DNA of 64,000 bases from Candidatus Rokuibacteriota bacterium (GCA_003221695.1 QHSX01000038.1:62001-126000), one strand, 5' to 3'; numbered from the stretch's first letter, positions 17,607 to 21,911 are shown. Program-made: numbers and translations. The notes: generated by a model not told the origin, from the letters alone.

Positions 17607-18437
17607 TCAGCTCGGGAGCGCGCGCTTGACCTTGTCACCGGATTCCTTGAGGATCGCGGCCGTCTCACCCGCCTGCCAGCGACGCTCCGCCCCCCAGTAG
17701 CTGGGCGCCCGCTTGCCGGACTTGACGGCCTCGGCCCCGAGGACCATCAGCGTCGCGACGAGCTTGTCCTGGCGCAGGAGGGCGTACTCCATCGCGGCCC
17801 AGTCGATGACCTCGTCGATCGCCTGGCCGTTCACGTCGCGCTCGTAGGGCTCGTACCAGCCCCTCTGGTCCGGCCGGAACGTCGTCACGATGCCCGTTTG
17901 CTTCGCCGCCGAGCGAAATGGCTGCGCACCGGGGTGGCGGTAGACCACGGCGAGCAGGATGTGGCCCCGGCTCCACGCGTAGCGGTAGTTGCCCGTGAGC
18001 GTGTAGTTCTGAGCCTGGTCCTCTTTCATCCCCTGGGAGACCAGGAGCCGCTGGAAGGCGCGGTTGGCCTCGACGATCGCTTCGGGCTTGAACCGGCCGT
18101 AGAGGCCCTCCTGCCCGTAGACGTCGCCGCTCTTTTGATCCACGTGCTGGTCCGTGATGGGCACCCCGAAGGTCGCCTTGTACGAGTCGTCCAACGAGAC
18201 CGCGTTCGCCTGGAGGAGCGCCTTGTTCAACTCCCCGAGCCCCGTGCCGAGGGTGTAGGGGAGGAAGGCGAGCCCCTGGGCGAGCCCGGACGCGATCATG
18301 AGGGGCGACAGAACCAGGTTGAGCATCCCGCGGCCGAACGTTTCCATTCCGGTTCGTCCGTCGTAGGACGCGCAGCCGCTCACGAGAAGAGTGGCCGTCA
18401 GGAGTGAACAGGTCAGACGCTTCATCATCGATTGCAT
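17607..18437 (-). CDS. lipoprotein of unknown function
   Basis: This is a 276-aa protein with signal peptide and lipobox LVSGC (about residue 20), so it is a lipid-anchored envelope protein. A hydrophobic, glycine-rich stretch (GMLNLVLSPLMIASGLAQGLAFL) after the lipid site could associate with the membrane. The rest is soluble and tyrosine-rich, with no recognised motif. The start at 18437 follows GAGGC; two further ATGs lie four and five codons downstream. It is separated from the lipid operon upstream by a terminator-like hairpin. Confidence 0.78.
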   Translation of the reverse strand: MQSMMKRLTCSLLTATLLVSGCASYDGRTGMETFGRGMLNLVLSPLMIASGLAQGLAFLPYTLGTGLGELNKALLQANAVSLDDSYKATFGVPITDQHVDQKSGDVYGQEGLYGRFKPEAIVEANRAFQRLLVSQGMKEDQAQNYTLTGNYRYAWSRGHILLAVVYRHPGAQPFRSAAKQTGIVTTFRPDQRGWYEPYERDVNGQAIDEVIDWAAMEYALLRQDKLVATLMVLGAEAVKSGKRAPSYWGAERRWQAGETAAILKESGDKVKRALPS

Positions 18438-18594: not shown

Positions 18595-18613
18595 GCGGGC
18601 GTCAGACGCCCGC
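18595..18613 (-). terminator. terminator of the lipid operon
   Basis: GCGGGCGT / ACGCCCGC arms enclose a three-base loop just past the desaturase stop on the minus strand. In that direction the stem is followed by CTGGCGTTTTCTCC, a short T-run a few bases off. This fits a moderate rho-independent terminator for the four-gene lipid operon. Confidence 0.6.
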
Positions 18614-18618
18614 GCGAA

Positions 18619-19566
18619 CTAGTCGAGGAAGGCCTGACCGACAATGAGCACGAGCCCAGCGAGGGCGACGGCCAGACTCGTGGCGAGGCCAACAGCGAAG
18701 AGCAGGACGGTTCTTACCCTCCCCCGAACCCCCTTGACGGCGAGGAACCCGAGGGGCGGCGGTACGGAGGACACAGGCCTTTCAAGACGGGGCAACAGCT
18801 CGCGCAACTCCTCCCGTCGAGTCCAGTGCAACCCCGGCCGCAGGTGGTGCTCCTGGTGATACCCCTCGTTGCAGCAGAGCCAGTTGTAGATGCGACCGTA
18901 GTGGCTCACGGCATTCGCCCAGCGGGTGCCCGGCAGGGCGCCGGCGTGCTGATAGTAGTTGGTCAGGATCCCGAAGAAGGACCCCACGTAGAAGACCGGG
19001 ACGAAGAAGAGCAGGACGTACTGCCACGAGAGGGCTGCGTAGGTCACCAAGCCGAGGCCGCAGACCGCTGTCTCGCTCAGCAGTCGGGCTTTCTGGCCGC
19101 TCCGCACCGCCTCCCGCCACGCTTCGACCGTGCCGCTCCGGAAGAGCCCGAGCAGCCCGTAGGTGAACGCGCCCTCGGGCGCCCCGTCCCTGCCAAACCG
19201 GTAGGTGGACGAATGATCCTGCGTGCGGCCGGCCGCGTCCCGACGGTCGTTGCCGTGACGGTGGTGGTTGAGATGATGGAATCGGCAGAATGTGAGCGGC
19301 ACGCCCAGGTTGATCGAATCCACCGCCGCGTAGATCCGATTCGCGACTTCGCTCCTGAACCACGGCGTGTGGACGAAGTTGTGGGTCGCGACGACGGCGT
19401 TGTACCAGAAGAGGAGCACGCCGCCCGGCCAAAGCCAGAGCAGGTCGAGCCAGCTGCGTTCGTCCCACGTCGCCGCCAGCCAGACGTTGAGACCGAGCTG
19501 GACGATCGAGACCACGAGGAGGATCGTGTCACGCGGAGAGTGGCGCCAGAGCGTCATGCTCGTCAC
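18619..19566 (-). CDS. membrane fatty acid desaturase
   Basis: This is a 315-aa di-iron membrane desaturase or hydroxylase with about four helices. The three histidine clusters are present: HNFVH (about residue 62), HHLNHHRHG (about 97) and HQEHH (about 240), which bind the two irons. It would desaturate or hydroxylate acyl chains with oxygen. It is the last gene of a leftward operon with CDP-alcohol phosphotransferase, PlsC and CdsA homologues, 3 bases after cdsA, so it probably modifies the lipid made by that operon. Confidence 0.88.
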   Translation of the reverse strand: MTSMTLWRHSPRDTILLVVSIVQLGLNVWLAATWDERSWLDLLWLWPGGVLLFWYNAVVATHNFVHTPWFRSEVANRIYAAVDSINLGVPLTFCRFHHLNHHRHGNDRRDAAGRTQDHSSTYRFGRDGAPEGAFTYGLLGLFRSGTVEAWREAVRSGQKARLLSETAVCGLGLVTYAALSWQYVLLFFVPVFYVGSFFGILTNYYQHAGALPGTRWANAVSHYGRIYNWLCCNEGYHQEHHLRPGLHWTRREELRELLPRLERPVSSVPPPLGFLAVKGVRGRVRTVLLFAVGLATSLAVALAGLVLIVGQAFLD

Positions 19567-19569
19567 GGC

Positions 19570-20514
19570 TCAGCTGGCAACGAGGTACCGAGTCAGGTGA
19601 AAGAAGACGGGGGCGGCGAAGCAGATCGAATCGATGCGATCCAGGATGCCGCCGTGCCCCTGGATCAGAGTCCCGTAGTCCTTGACTCCGCGATCGCGCT
19701 TGACGGCAGACATGACCAGGCCACCGGCGAAGCCCAGCAGCGTGAGGACCAGGGACAGCACGCCGGCCTCCCAGGGCGTGAAGGGCGTGATCCATGACAC
19801 CCCTGCGCCGAGGAGCGTGGCGCTCACGATTCCGCCCAGGAAACCCTCCCAGGTCTTGCCGGGGCTGATCGTGGGGGCGATGGGGGTCCGCCCCACCCAC
19901 TTGCCCCACACGTACTGCAGCACGTCGCTCGCCTGGACGACGAGGACGAAGAAGACCAGGAGCTTGAGGTTCTGCCCCTCGTAGCCCCGGATCTCGAGGC
20001 TCAGCAAGGCGGGCACGTGGCTCACGCCGTACACGCAGACCATCAGGCCCCAATGGATGTCCGCAGTGCGCTCGAGAAAACGCGTGCGGTCGCCGGCCAG
20101 CGCGCCGCGGAACGCCAGGAGGATGGCGCCGACCGGGACGAAAATAGTGAGCAGATCGAGCCGTCCCGCGGCAACGAGCCCGTACTGTACCGGGATCACG
20201 CCGAAGAACGCCCAGCAGAGGGAGCGATGGTCCGCCCGCAGCGTAGGCGTGAGCGTGACGAACTCCCGCAGCGCCAGAAACGAGATGAGAGCGAAGAACA
20301 CCACGGACCCGACACCACCGGTCAGCAACGAGGCCAGAAACGTCAAGCACATCACCCACCAGGCCCTGATGCGCTCGTTCATGTTGACGATCACGGCGCG
20401 GCCGCCGGAACTCACGACCGTGCGGTCCAGGACGAGCCCCACTCCCGTAGCCAGAACGAGGGCGATCGTGGCGCCCAAGACGATCCACGCCAGGTCCCGG
20501 TCCATGGTCAGCAT
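19570..20514 (-). CDS. phosphatidate cytidylyltransferase (CdsA family)
   Basis: This is a 314-aa polytopic membrane enzyme making CDP-diacylglycerol from CTP and phosphatidic acid. The family signature is present at the C-terminus: SAVKRDRGVKDYG followed by GHGGILDRIDS. An ISPGKTWEGF loop and several helices precede it. An unusually long hydrophilic segment after helix 1 carries NMNERIRAW. The neighbouring acyltransferase and CDP-alcohol enzyme suggest a dedicated phospholipid route rather than the housekeeping cdsA; the genome probably has another copy. It overlaps plsC by 7 bases. Confidence 0.92.
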   Translation of the reverse strand: MLTMDRDLAWIVLGATIALVLATGVGLVLDRTVVSSGGRAVIVNMNERIRAWWVMCLTFLASLLTGGVGSVVFFALISFLALREFVTLTPTLRADHRSLCWAFFGVIPVQYGLVAAGRLDLLTIFVPVGAILLAFRGALAGDRTRFLERTADIHWGLMVCVYGVSHVPALLSLEIRGYEGQNLKLLVFFVLVVQASDVLQYVWGKWVGRTPIAPTISPGKTWEGFLGGIVSATLLGAGVSWITPFTPWEAGVLSLVLTLLGFAGGLVMSAVKRDRGVKDYGTLIQGHGGILDRIDSICFAAPVFFHLTRYLVAS

Positions 20515-21140
20515 GGGGCCTCCGTCGACTTGAGCCGCTGCACCGCTTCTCGGGCCCGCTCGAGGAAGGCCTCCTTGGGCTCATCAGCGCCGAGAGCGAG
20601 GGGCGGACCGAACGTCACACAGCAGGCCATGGGCACCGGCAGCAGTTCTCCCTTGGGAAGGATGCGGTAGACGTTGTCGAGATAGACGGGCACCAACTCG
20701 AGCGCGGGCTTGCCCACGCTCAGGTGGTAGAGCCCGCTCTTGAACGGGGCGATCTCTGGCCCGGCACCGCGCGTGCCTTCGGGGAATACGATGAGCGACC
20801 ACCGCTCGCCCATCGATTCCAGAATGGTCTTGATCTGCTGCTCGCGCGCCGCGACGCTCGTGTTGTCGCGCGCGATGAGCACGGCGCCGGAGAGCCGTGT
20901 GATAAGCCGTCGGAGCGGGTTCTCGGTTCCCCAGTAATCGCGGGCGCCCAGCGGGCGCGTTCGCAGCCTGATCTGGGTCGGCAAGGCGGACCAGATGAGC
21001 ACCGCGTCGAGATGGCTGGTGTGATTGCCGAAGTAGACGCGCTGGCGTGGCTCCGGCGTGCAGCCTACCCAGCGCACGGTGGCGCCGGAGAGGAACCGCG
21101 CGGCCCCGGCGATGACGACGGAGGACGGCGCGTTCAGCAT
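20508..21140 (-). CDS. 1-acylglycerol-3-phosphate acyltransferase (PlsC family)
   Basis: This 210-aa membrane-associated acyltransferase adds an acyl chain to a lysophosphatidate-type acceptor. The HX4D catalytic motif is His40 to Asp45 in GNHTSHLD. The glycerol-phosphate-binding block is VFPEGTRG, and APFKSGLYHL follows. The ATG at 21140 lies inside the end of the upstream CDP-alcohol phosphotransferase gene (7-base overlap), and its own end overlaps cdsA. It supplies phosphatidic acid to the CdsA-like enzyme. Confidence 0.9.
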   Translation of the reverse strand: MLNAPSSVVIAGAARFLSGATVRWVGCTPEPRQRVYFGNHTSHLDAVLIWSALPTQIRLRTRPLGARDYWGTENPLRRLITRLSGAVLIARDNTSVAAREQQIKTILESMGERWSLIVFPEGTRGAGPEIAPFKSGLYHLSVGKPALELVPVYLDNVYRILPKGELLPVPMACCVTFGPPLALGADEPKEAFLERAREAVQRLKSTEAPC

Positions 21141-21775
21141 GCCTCCAGCTCCCGAACGATCCGCACCGTACGGCAGATGATCGTGACCGCGCAGCCCGCC
21201 GCCACCACCGCGAGCCCACCCGCGATCGCGTACGCGGGCTGGCCCACGGCCGACTCGACAGAGGCCACGAGGCACGCTGCGCCCAGAGCGACCATCCGGT
21301 GGGGCTTCGCCATGGGGCCGCCGAACTGCGGCGCCGCGCCTGCCGCGGCGCCGAGCACCCGGACGTAGGCGGTCAGCGCAGCGAGCAGAGCCGCGAGCCA
21401 GCCGAGCCCCGGGGCCCAGGCCACCTGTGGAATCGCGTAGCCCGCGGCGACAAGGACCAGGATGTCCGAGACGCGATCGGGCAGGTCATTGAAGATCTCG
21501 CCCGTCCTCGTCCTGAGACCCCCCTCGATCGCCATCAGGCCATCGCAGAGATTGCAGAGCCCGCGAAACGGAATGAAGGCCGCCGCCCCTAGGAACGCGA
21601 TGCTTCGCCAGATAGGCTCTGCGAGCGGCGCCAGGACCAGGCAGGTCGCCGTCACAGCGGAGAAGCCCACACTCAAGAGGGAGACGTGGTTGGGCTTCAC
21701 TCGTGCCCGGACCAGCCAGGCGGCGATGGCCCTCACGAAGCTCTGGTCACGAAGAGCGATTGGCCGGCGGTCCAT
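21134..21775 (-). CDS. CDP-alcohol phosphatidyltransferase with substituted motif
   Basis: This is a 213-aa membrane enzyme that would join CDP-diacylglycerol to an alcohol. The canonical motif is D-x2-DG-x2-AR-x8-G-x3-D-x3-D. Here the positions read Asn75, Asp78-Gly79, Ala82, Ile83, Gly92, Asn96 and Asp100, with a further Asp104. Two of four aspartates are asparagine and the arginine is isoleucine, so metal binding must differ or another alcohol or mechanism is used. It is the first gene of the lipid operon, with GGAGG ahead of the ATG. The gene set recalls the E. coli ynbAB locus. Confidence 0.85.
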   Translation of the reverse strand: MDRRPIALRDQSFVRAIAAWLVRARVKPNHVSLLSVGFSAVTATCLVLAPLAEPIWRSIAFLGAAAFIPFRGLCNLCDGLMAIEGGLRTRTGEIFNDLPDRVSDILVLVAAGYAIPQVAWAPGLGWLAALLAALTAYVRVLGAAAGAAPQFGGPMAKPHRMVALGAACLVASVESAVGQPAYAIAGGLAVVAAGCAVTIICRTVRIVRELEAC

Positions 21776-21911
21776 AGGATTTGGCTCCTCCTCGCCCTGT
21801 GAGTAGGCAAGCGGAGTGCCAGAGGGAAAGGCCTGACGAGGAGGCTACTTACGAAGAATGACGGGCCGCAGTCGATGCGGTGGTGGTGGTGCCGTCTGCC
21901 GCGTCAGACGC

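Follow-up and report, generated by a model that had tools for sequence, protein, structure and literature searches.

An operon in a Rokuibacteriota genome links a YnbA-type CDP-alcohol phosphotransferase homologue carrying an asparagine pair to PlsC, CdsA and a desaturase

A stretch of 64,000 nucleotides from Candidatus Rokuibacteriota bacterium (GCA_003221695.1 QHSX01000038.1:62001-126000; hereafter the window) carries on its minus strand a ynbA-like gene, encoding a homologue of class I cytidine diphosphate (CDP)-alcohol phosphotransferases in which asparagines replace two motif aspartates. This locus raises the question of whether the substitutions are an oddity of one protein or the mark of a family, and of which lipid the protein might make with its neighbours. 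Four tightly packed genes occupy positions 21775-18619, where an earlier note on this DNA had placed them. In 5' to 3' order, they encode the ynbA-like CDP-alcohol phosphatidyltransferase with Asn75, Asn96 and Ile83 (21134..21775, 213 amino acids), a plsC-like 1-acylglycerol-3-phosphate acyltransferase whose ATG overlaps the ynbA stop codon (20508..21140, 210 amino acids), a cdsA/ynbB-like phosphatidate cytidylyltransferase overlapping plsC (19570..20514, 314 amino acids) and a membrane fatty-acid-desaturase-like protein with a GTG start immediately past the cdsA stop (18619..19566). The explanation that we favour, at what we judge to be about even chances, is a self-contained ynb-type phospholipid cassette in which YnbA would join CDP-diacylglycerol to a polyol or sugar that bears a phosphate, and the chains would be edited by the desaturase.

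The asparagine pair marks a YnbA subfamily

The motif read directly in the window protein is R71..C-N75-LC-D78-G-LM-A-I83-x8-G92-EIF-N96-DLP-D100, in which N75, I83 and N96 stand where Asp, Arg and Asp are usual, as described in the earlier note. The codons of its signature region (R71-N75-D78-G79-A82-I83-G92-N96-D100-D104), located from the sequence and the alignments, span 21464..21565 on the minus strand. Relative to the strict class I signature D1xxD2G1xxAR...G2xxxD3xxxD4, the protein departs at D1 (N75), at the motif Arg (I83) and at D3 (N96), and retains D2 (D78) and D4 (D100). Its score against PF01066 (CDP-OH_P_transf), 20.3 bits, is slightly below the 22-bit cut-off.

The search for related loci gave at least 551, of which 80 were kept for a survey that spans Pseudomonadota, Verrucomicrobiota, Planctomycetota, Acidobacteria, Bdellovibrionales, Actinobacteria, Cyanobacteria and others; overall, 91 loci were examined. 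In the alignment of the 91 YnbA-type proteins, R71, N75, D78, G79, A82, G92, N96, D100, D104, K157, R160 and R202 are all invariant. R71 is a newly recognised invariant arginine, predicted to be a single helical turn away from N75 and to face the same side of the helix, and the window protein carries the complete subfamily signature of R71, N75, N96, D78 and D100. The motif-Arg position is occupied by Val, Ile, Met or Leu in 90 of the 91 aligned proteins and by Arg in E. coli YnbA; five more E. coli-type proteins also keep this Arg.

Most of the 91 loci were gathered with two search patterns, one of which contained N96, and the 80 loci of the pattern survey are therefore insufficient alone as proof of N96 conservation. 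For this reason, a motif-independent control was made by profile search of 95 genomes from the window's phylum, only seven of which contain YnbA. All seven strong matches (E <= 5.3e-34) have asparagine at both positions (N/N) together with R71, whereas all 23 of the weaker homologues that were read (E ~1e-19 and above) have aspartate at both (D/D) together with the motif Arg and lack R71. A clear gap in E-values separates the two groups.

The alignment and the control survey thus bear out the proposal of the earlier note that the Asn residues define a subfamily, and the likeness it had drawn to the E. coli ynbAB locus extends to the motif itself, as E. coli YnbA carries both asparagines. An ordinary phosphatidylglycerol-phosphate (PGP) synthase consensus, which the note had named as the finding that would overturn its idea, is excluded as the source of the Asn pair, since E. 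coli PgsA (D/D/R/D/D) and the canonical paralogues are D/D with Arg; phosphatidylserine synthases lie outside this direct sample, and the four-Asp motif is the published signature of the class. In phylogenetic inference with the motif columns kept, the N/N proteins fall on one side of a branch (Shimodaira-Hasegawa-like approximate likelihood ratio test [SH-aLRT] 90); the grouping loses resolution once these columns are removed (approximately unbiased test, p 0.50; long PgsA branch), and we do not claim a single origin. The Asn pair marks a widespread, uncharacterised YnbA subfamily that includes E. coli YnbA, and the window protein is a member of it and no singular oddity.

Compared with the E. 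coli ynbABCD locus (b1408-b1411), the window protein shares with YnbA the Asn at D1 and D3, the Arg at position 71 and a CdsA/YnbB-type neighbour. It differs in having Ile83 at the position of the motif Arg, which E. coli YnbA retains, the two proteins being only about 25% identical, and the window operon has PlsC and the desaturase in place of YnbC and YnbD.

A cassette of gain or loss with plsC and cdsA

Both plsC and cdsA/ynbB lie beside ynbA in 78 of the 91 loci, as they do in the window. The order YnbA-PlsC-CdsA was seen 42 times, YnbA-CdsA-PlsC 23 times and PlsC-CdsA-YnbA five times, in addition to rarer or divergent arrangements, and the constancy of the trio under varying order argues for a shared pathway. 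This three-gene set recurs in many phyla, far beyond what chance would produce. Plasmid-borne ynbA-plsC-cdsA cassettes of Rhizobium, Paracoccus, Gemmobacter and Pseudomonas resemble the window operon in their three genes, in the N/N pair and in the Ile or Val at the Arg position, but lack the desaturase and have other flanks. On a Rhizobium lentis plasmid (L179 2974-3351) the YnbA gene is truncated to ~125 amino acids, with plsC and cdsA annotated as full-length. Several Acinetobacter loci (L055, L057, L063, L074), as well as L059, L089 and L097 from a few other genomes, contain ynbA with neither plsC nor cdsA closer than 6 kb.

Larger loci (in the relatives G016, G029 and G090 and in Shinella and Citrobacter plasmids) additionally carry YnbC, a hydrolase with a Methyltransf_20 domain, and YnbD, which combines PAP2 with a dual-specificity phosphatase; their presence fits the trimming and modification of a phosphorylated product. 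Neither gene is found beside the window operon, which is thus not of the E. coli ynbABCD type. Besides plsC and cdsA, no neighbour that might reveal the head group is widely shared among the 91 loci; other large neighbour clusters were dismissed as opposite-strand shadow frames or lineage-specific genes.

These neighbourhoods bear on the possibility that YnbA is a catalytically dead paralogue aiding or regulating a CdsA/PlsC pair that merely boosts the supply of CDP-diacylglycerol. The loss of two of the four metal-binding aspartates, and of the motif Arg in most members, would suit such a role, as would the usual presence of the two upstream enzymes next to it. Nevertheless, D2, D4, both motif glycines, the alanine and the basic residues of the acceptor site are invariant across phyla, unlike the drift expected of a dead site, and a few loci, those of Acinetobacter among them, have ynbA without nearby plsC or cdsA. 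We consequently consider a dead paralogue quite unlikely, and the pattern of invariant residues suggests an active YnbA whose metal site is altered.

The partner proteins in the window have intact signatures. The plsC product matches PF01553 with 58.3 bits, above the cut-off (the match to TIGR00530 is weak), and contains both NHx4D (as NHTSHLD) and FPEGTR. The cdsA product scores 213.5 bits against PF01148 and its signature (SAVKRDRGVKDYGTLIQGHGGILDRID) agrees with the family pattern SxxKRx4KD...HGGxxDRxD. The desaturase (PF00487, 85.7 bits) presents all three His boxes: HNFVH, HHLNHH and HQEHH.

The earlier note had also regarded CdsA and PlsC as dedicated copies, which holds in part. PlsC and CdsA are co-inherited with YnbA in the 78 loci mentioned above, and the window CdsA falls in a YnbB-type clade, the CdsA/YnbB proteins of such modules being separate from housekeeping CdsA in the inferred tree (SH-aLRT 95). 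The genome encodes several PlsC-like proteins. The operon CdsA, on the other hand, is no extra copy: no second canonical CdsA turned up in this genome, and none at all was found in G001-G003. The place that cdsA usually takes is empty, with uppS followed directly by dxr in G000 (C35:69537-70199, L166) and G001 (L169), as opposed to the uppS-cdsA-dxr arrangement of G008 (L167). As the assembly comprises 109 contigs, the lack of a second CdsA is likely rather than certain. The only other candidate CDP-lipid synthase is a CarS-like, archaeal-type protein (PF01864, 87 bits) encoded near G000:C1:262.5 kb (L163), which may do the work of the missing uppS-cdsA-dxr cdsA in the window's genus. Archaeal-type lipids are not indicated as an explanation of this gene, since no match to PcrB/GGGPS was obtained in the genome.

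The operon behaves as a unit. The DNA of the window aligns with that of the same-genus genome G001 up to position 18599 and again from 21907, at 87-89% identity, and the four-gene block (18600..21906, minus strand) fits exactly in the alignment gap, opposite a different 6.4 kb in G001 that includes a sigma-54-type regulator gene. Similarly, a 5.5 kb ynbA-ynbC-ynbD-plsC-cdsA block in G029 stands opposite a gap of ~200 bases in same-genus G008. Because the block lies exactly between aligned flanks, the operon, desaturase included, is a single cassette of gain or loss. The same lipoprotein-like gene (17607..18437 in the window, minus strand; no Pfam family) immediately follows both cassettes; it also sits directly behind the ynb module of G090 and is present at this site, without cassette, in G001. 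In relatives (L130, L132, L135, L136) the lipoprotein-like gene is near a regulator of ~1360 amino acids with sigma-54-activator, AAA and TPR domains; in the window this regulator is absent from the vicinity, and the lipid operon is in its place.

The desaturase is an unusual addition to a ynb-type cassette. No full-length homologue was found among 60 relatives, and the closest protein in the phylum, 58% identical, is encoded in G072. Its cluster (G072:C344:5000-16322, L218) encodes a CarS-like protein, a phosphatidylcholine-synthase-like CDP-alcohol enzyme, a DUF3419 (BtaA-like) protein, a class-III aminotransferase, the desaturase and a fatty acid hydroxylase, and possibly makes one more unusual polar lipid. 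There, as in the window, the desaturase has a CDP-lipid synthase and a CDP-alcohol enzyme for neighbours, although the partners are the CarS-like, phosphatidylcholine-synthase-like and DUF3419 proteins instead of YnbA, PlsC and YnbB. This separate association with CDP-lipid synthesis favours a part for the desaturase in the editing of lipid chains.

Fold, acceptor pocket and candidate products

The AlphaFold2 model of the window YnbA (predicted local distance difference test score 92) has the six-helix fold of the family, with 19 PDB matches at E <= 0.001, all of them CDP-alcohol phosphotransferases (probability 1.00). Its best PDB matches are phosphatidylinositol-phosphate (PIP) synthases, with template-modelling (TM) scores of 0.64-0.73, compared to 0.44-0.50 for PGP synthase; phosphatidylserine synthases are likewise much poorer matches than PIP synthases. 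The top NCBIfam profiles are those of archaetidylinositol-phosphate and PIP synthases, both far under cut-off: the PIP-synthase family profile yields 40.0 bits where 170 are required, and N75 and N96 break the four-Asp set of that family. With the PGP synthase profile TIGR00560 (cut-off 109 bits) the protein reaches 16.7 bits, and the D/D with Arg of that enzyme is absent.

In M. tuberculosis PIP synthase, two metals are bound via D68, D71, D89 and D93, the acceptor phosphate is bound via R155 and R195, as established by mutagenesis and a bound sulfate, and R152, K135 and S132 are near the acceptor phosphate (PMC6506517, PMC4634129). The pocket residues R155, R195, K135 and R152 are kept in the window YnbA as R160, R202, R139 and K157, and the two phosphate-binding arginines, which align with R160 and R202, are conserved in 91 of 91 proteins. 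Thus, the window protein resembles PIP synthase (M. tuberculosis PgsA1, PDB 6h59) and archaetidylinositol-phosphate synthase in fold (TM about 0.7), best profiles and basic residues, but those enzymes have the four Asp and the motif Arg, and it scores far below their NCBIfam cut-offs. The conserved pocket points to an acceptor that carries a phosphate.

A different acceptor would make the product less special: YnbA might use an unphosphorylated alcohol, or else take glycerol-3-phosphate and so provide another way of making ordinary phosphatidylglycerol. Glycerol-3-phosphate is universal, and PTPMT1, the PGP phosphatase of mitochondria, is similar to the YnbD-like dual-specificity phosphatases. 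On a Nitratireductor plasmid (L010), the cassette lies between ugp glycerol-3-phosphate import and iol inositol catabolism genes; the ugp genes speak for glycerol-3-phosphate, and the surroundings as a whole are a possible hint to the acceptor. However, YnbA is far nearer PIP synthase than PGP synthase in both sequence and fold and keeps the phosphate-binding Arg pair, and pgsA-null E. coli is not known to make phosphatidylglycerol, although it has ynbA. This alternative appears to us unlikely.

A second alternative stems from published work on YnbB. In this case, the nucleophile would be the phosphate of a sugar-1-phosphate, and YnbA would form a pyrophosphate-linked lipid such as N-acetylglucosamine (GlcNAc)-PP-diacylglycerol, the precursor of MPIase, a chemistry that the altered metal site would suit. 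E. coli CdsA preparations make GlcNAc-PP-diacylglycerol from CDP-diacylglycerol and GlcNAc-1-phosphate (PMC6362211), a reaction formally within CDP-alcohol phosphotransferase chemistry, so that a role of YnbA is worth testing even though the authors credit CdsA itself. YnbB overproduction raises MPIase (PMC6362211, PMC7018664), and on CdsA depletion YnbB, the partner of YnbA, restores MPIase, not bulk phospholipid (PMC7018664). Transposon insertions in ynbB are depleted in a strain with only phosphoglyceride-linked enterobacterial common antigen, for whose synthesis the authors consider ynbB dispensable (PMC8609368). Against this, the published work credits CdsA and YnbB themselves, using partially purified CdsA8, the D4 base, used on hydroxyl acceptors, is kept in YnbA, and MPIase is reported to be essential, which ynbB is not. 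The ynbA gene is not known to be essential either. We regard a pyrophosphate-linked product as very unlikely.

Under the favoured reading of a self-contained phospholipid cassette, PlsC would acylate lysophosphatidic acid to phosphatidic acid, which the YnbB-type CdsA would convert to CDP-diacylglycerol. YnbA, from the PIP-synthase branch, would then transfer the phosphatidyl group onto a phosphorylated polyol or sugar, giving phosphatidyl-X-phosphate, at a metal site in which two Asn presumably stand beside two Asp, Arg71 lying on that face of the helix. The desaturase would modify acyl chains of the product lipid or its precursors, and the product would be a special phospholipid.

Several observations weigh against this scheme. 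All four Asp bind metals in M. tuberculosis PIP synthase, where changing D4 to Asn nearly kills activity (PMC4634129, PMC6506517); we found no published test of D1- or D3-to-Asn, and activity is thus not assured. No activity is on record for any YnbA, and the literature searched, with subscription journals mostly outside it, gave no function for YnbA, YnbC or YnbD. A phosphatase neighbour is absent from most three-gene loci, the window's included, and the desaturase is beside no other YnbA locus examined. Finally, inositol-1-phosphate synthase, present in two copies in the host and also in relatives without ynbA, had no match in the E. coli control, which has YnbA; inositol phosphate is therefore a possible acceptor in this host but unlikely as the general one.

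A bolder version of the scheme, which we hold to be rather doubtful, is that YnbA-type proteins constitute a new mechanistic class with a half-neutral metal site, in which Arg71 replaces part of the metal charge, making in many phyla an undescribed phosphatidyl-sugar-phosphate or pyrophosphate-linked glycolipid that would possibly feed the MPIase-like lipids of E. coli.

Across all domains of life, the four-Asp signature is treated as the hallmark of the phospholipid head-group enzymes of this class. That a large subfamily has exchanged two of the four Asp yet keeps the acceptor pocket, and travels with a PlsC and a CDP-diacylglycerol synthase of its own, suggests that hundreds of bacteria make a phospholipid not yet described. 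The subfamily also warns against regarding YnbB as no more than a backup enzyme for MPIase, and makes the question of E. coli ynbABCD concretely testable.

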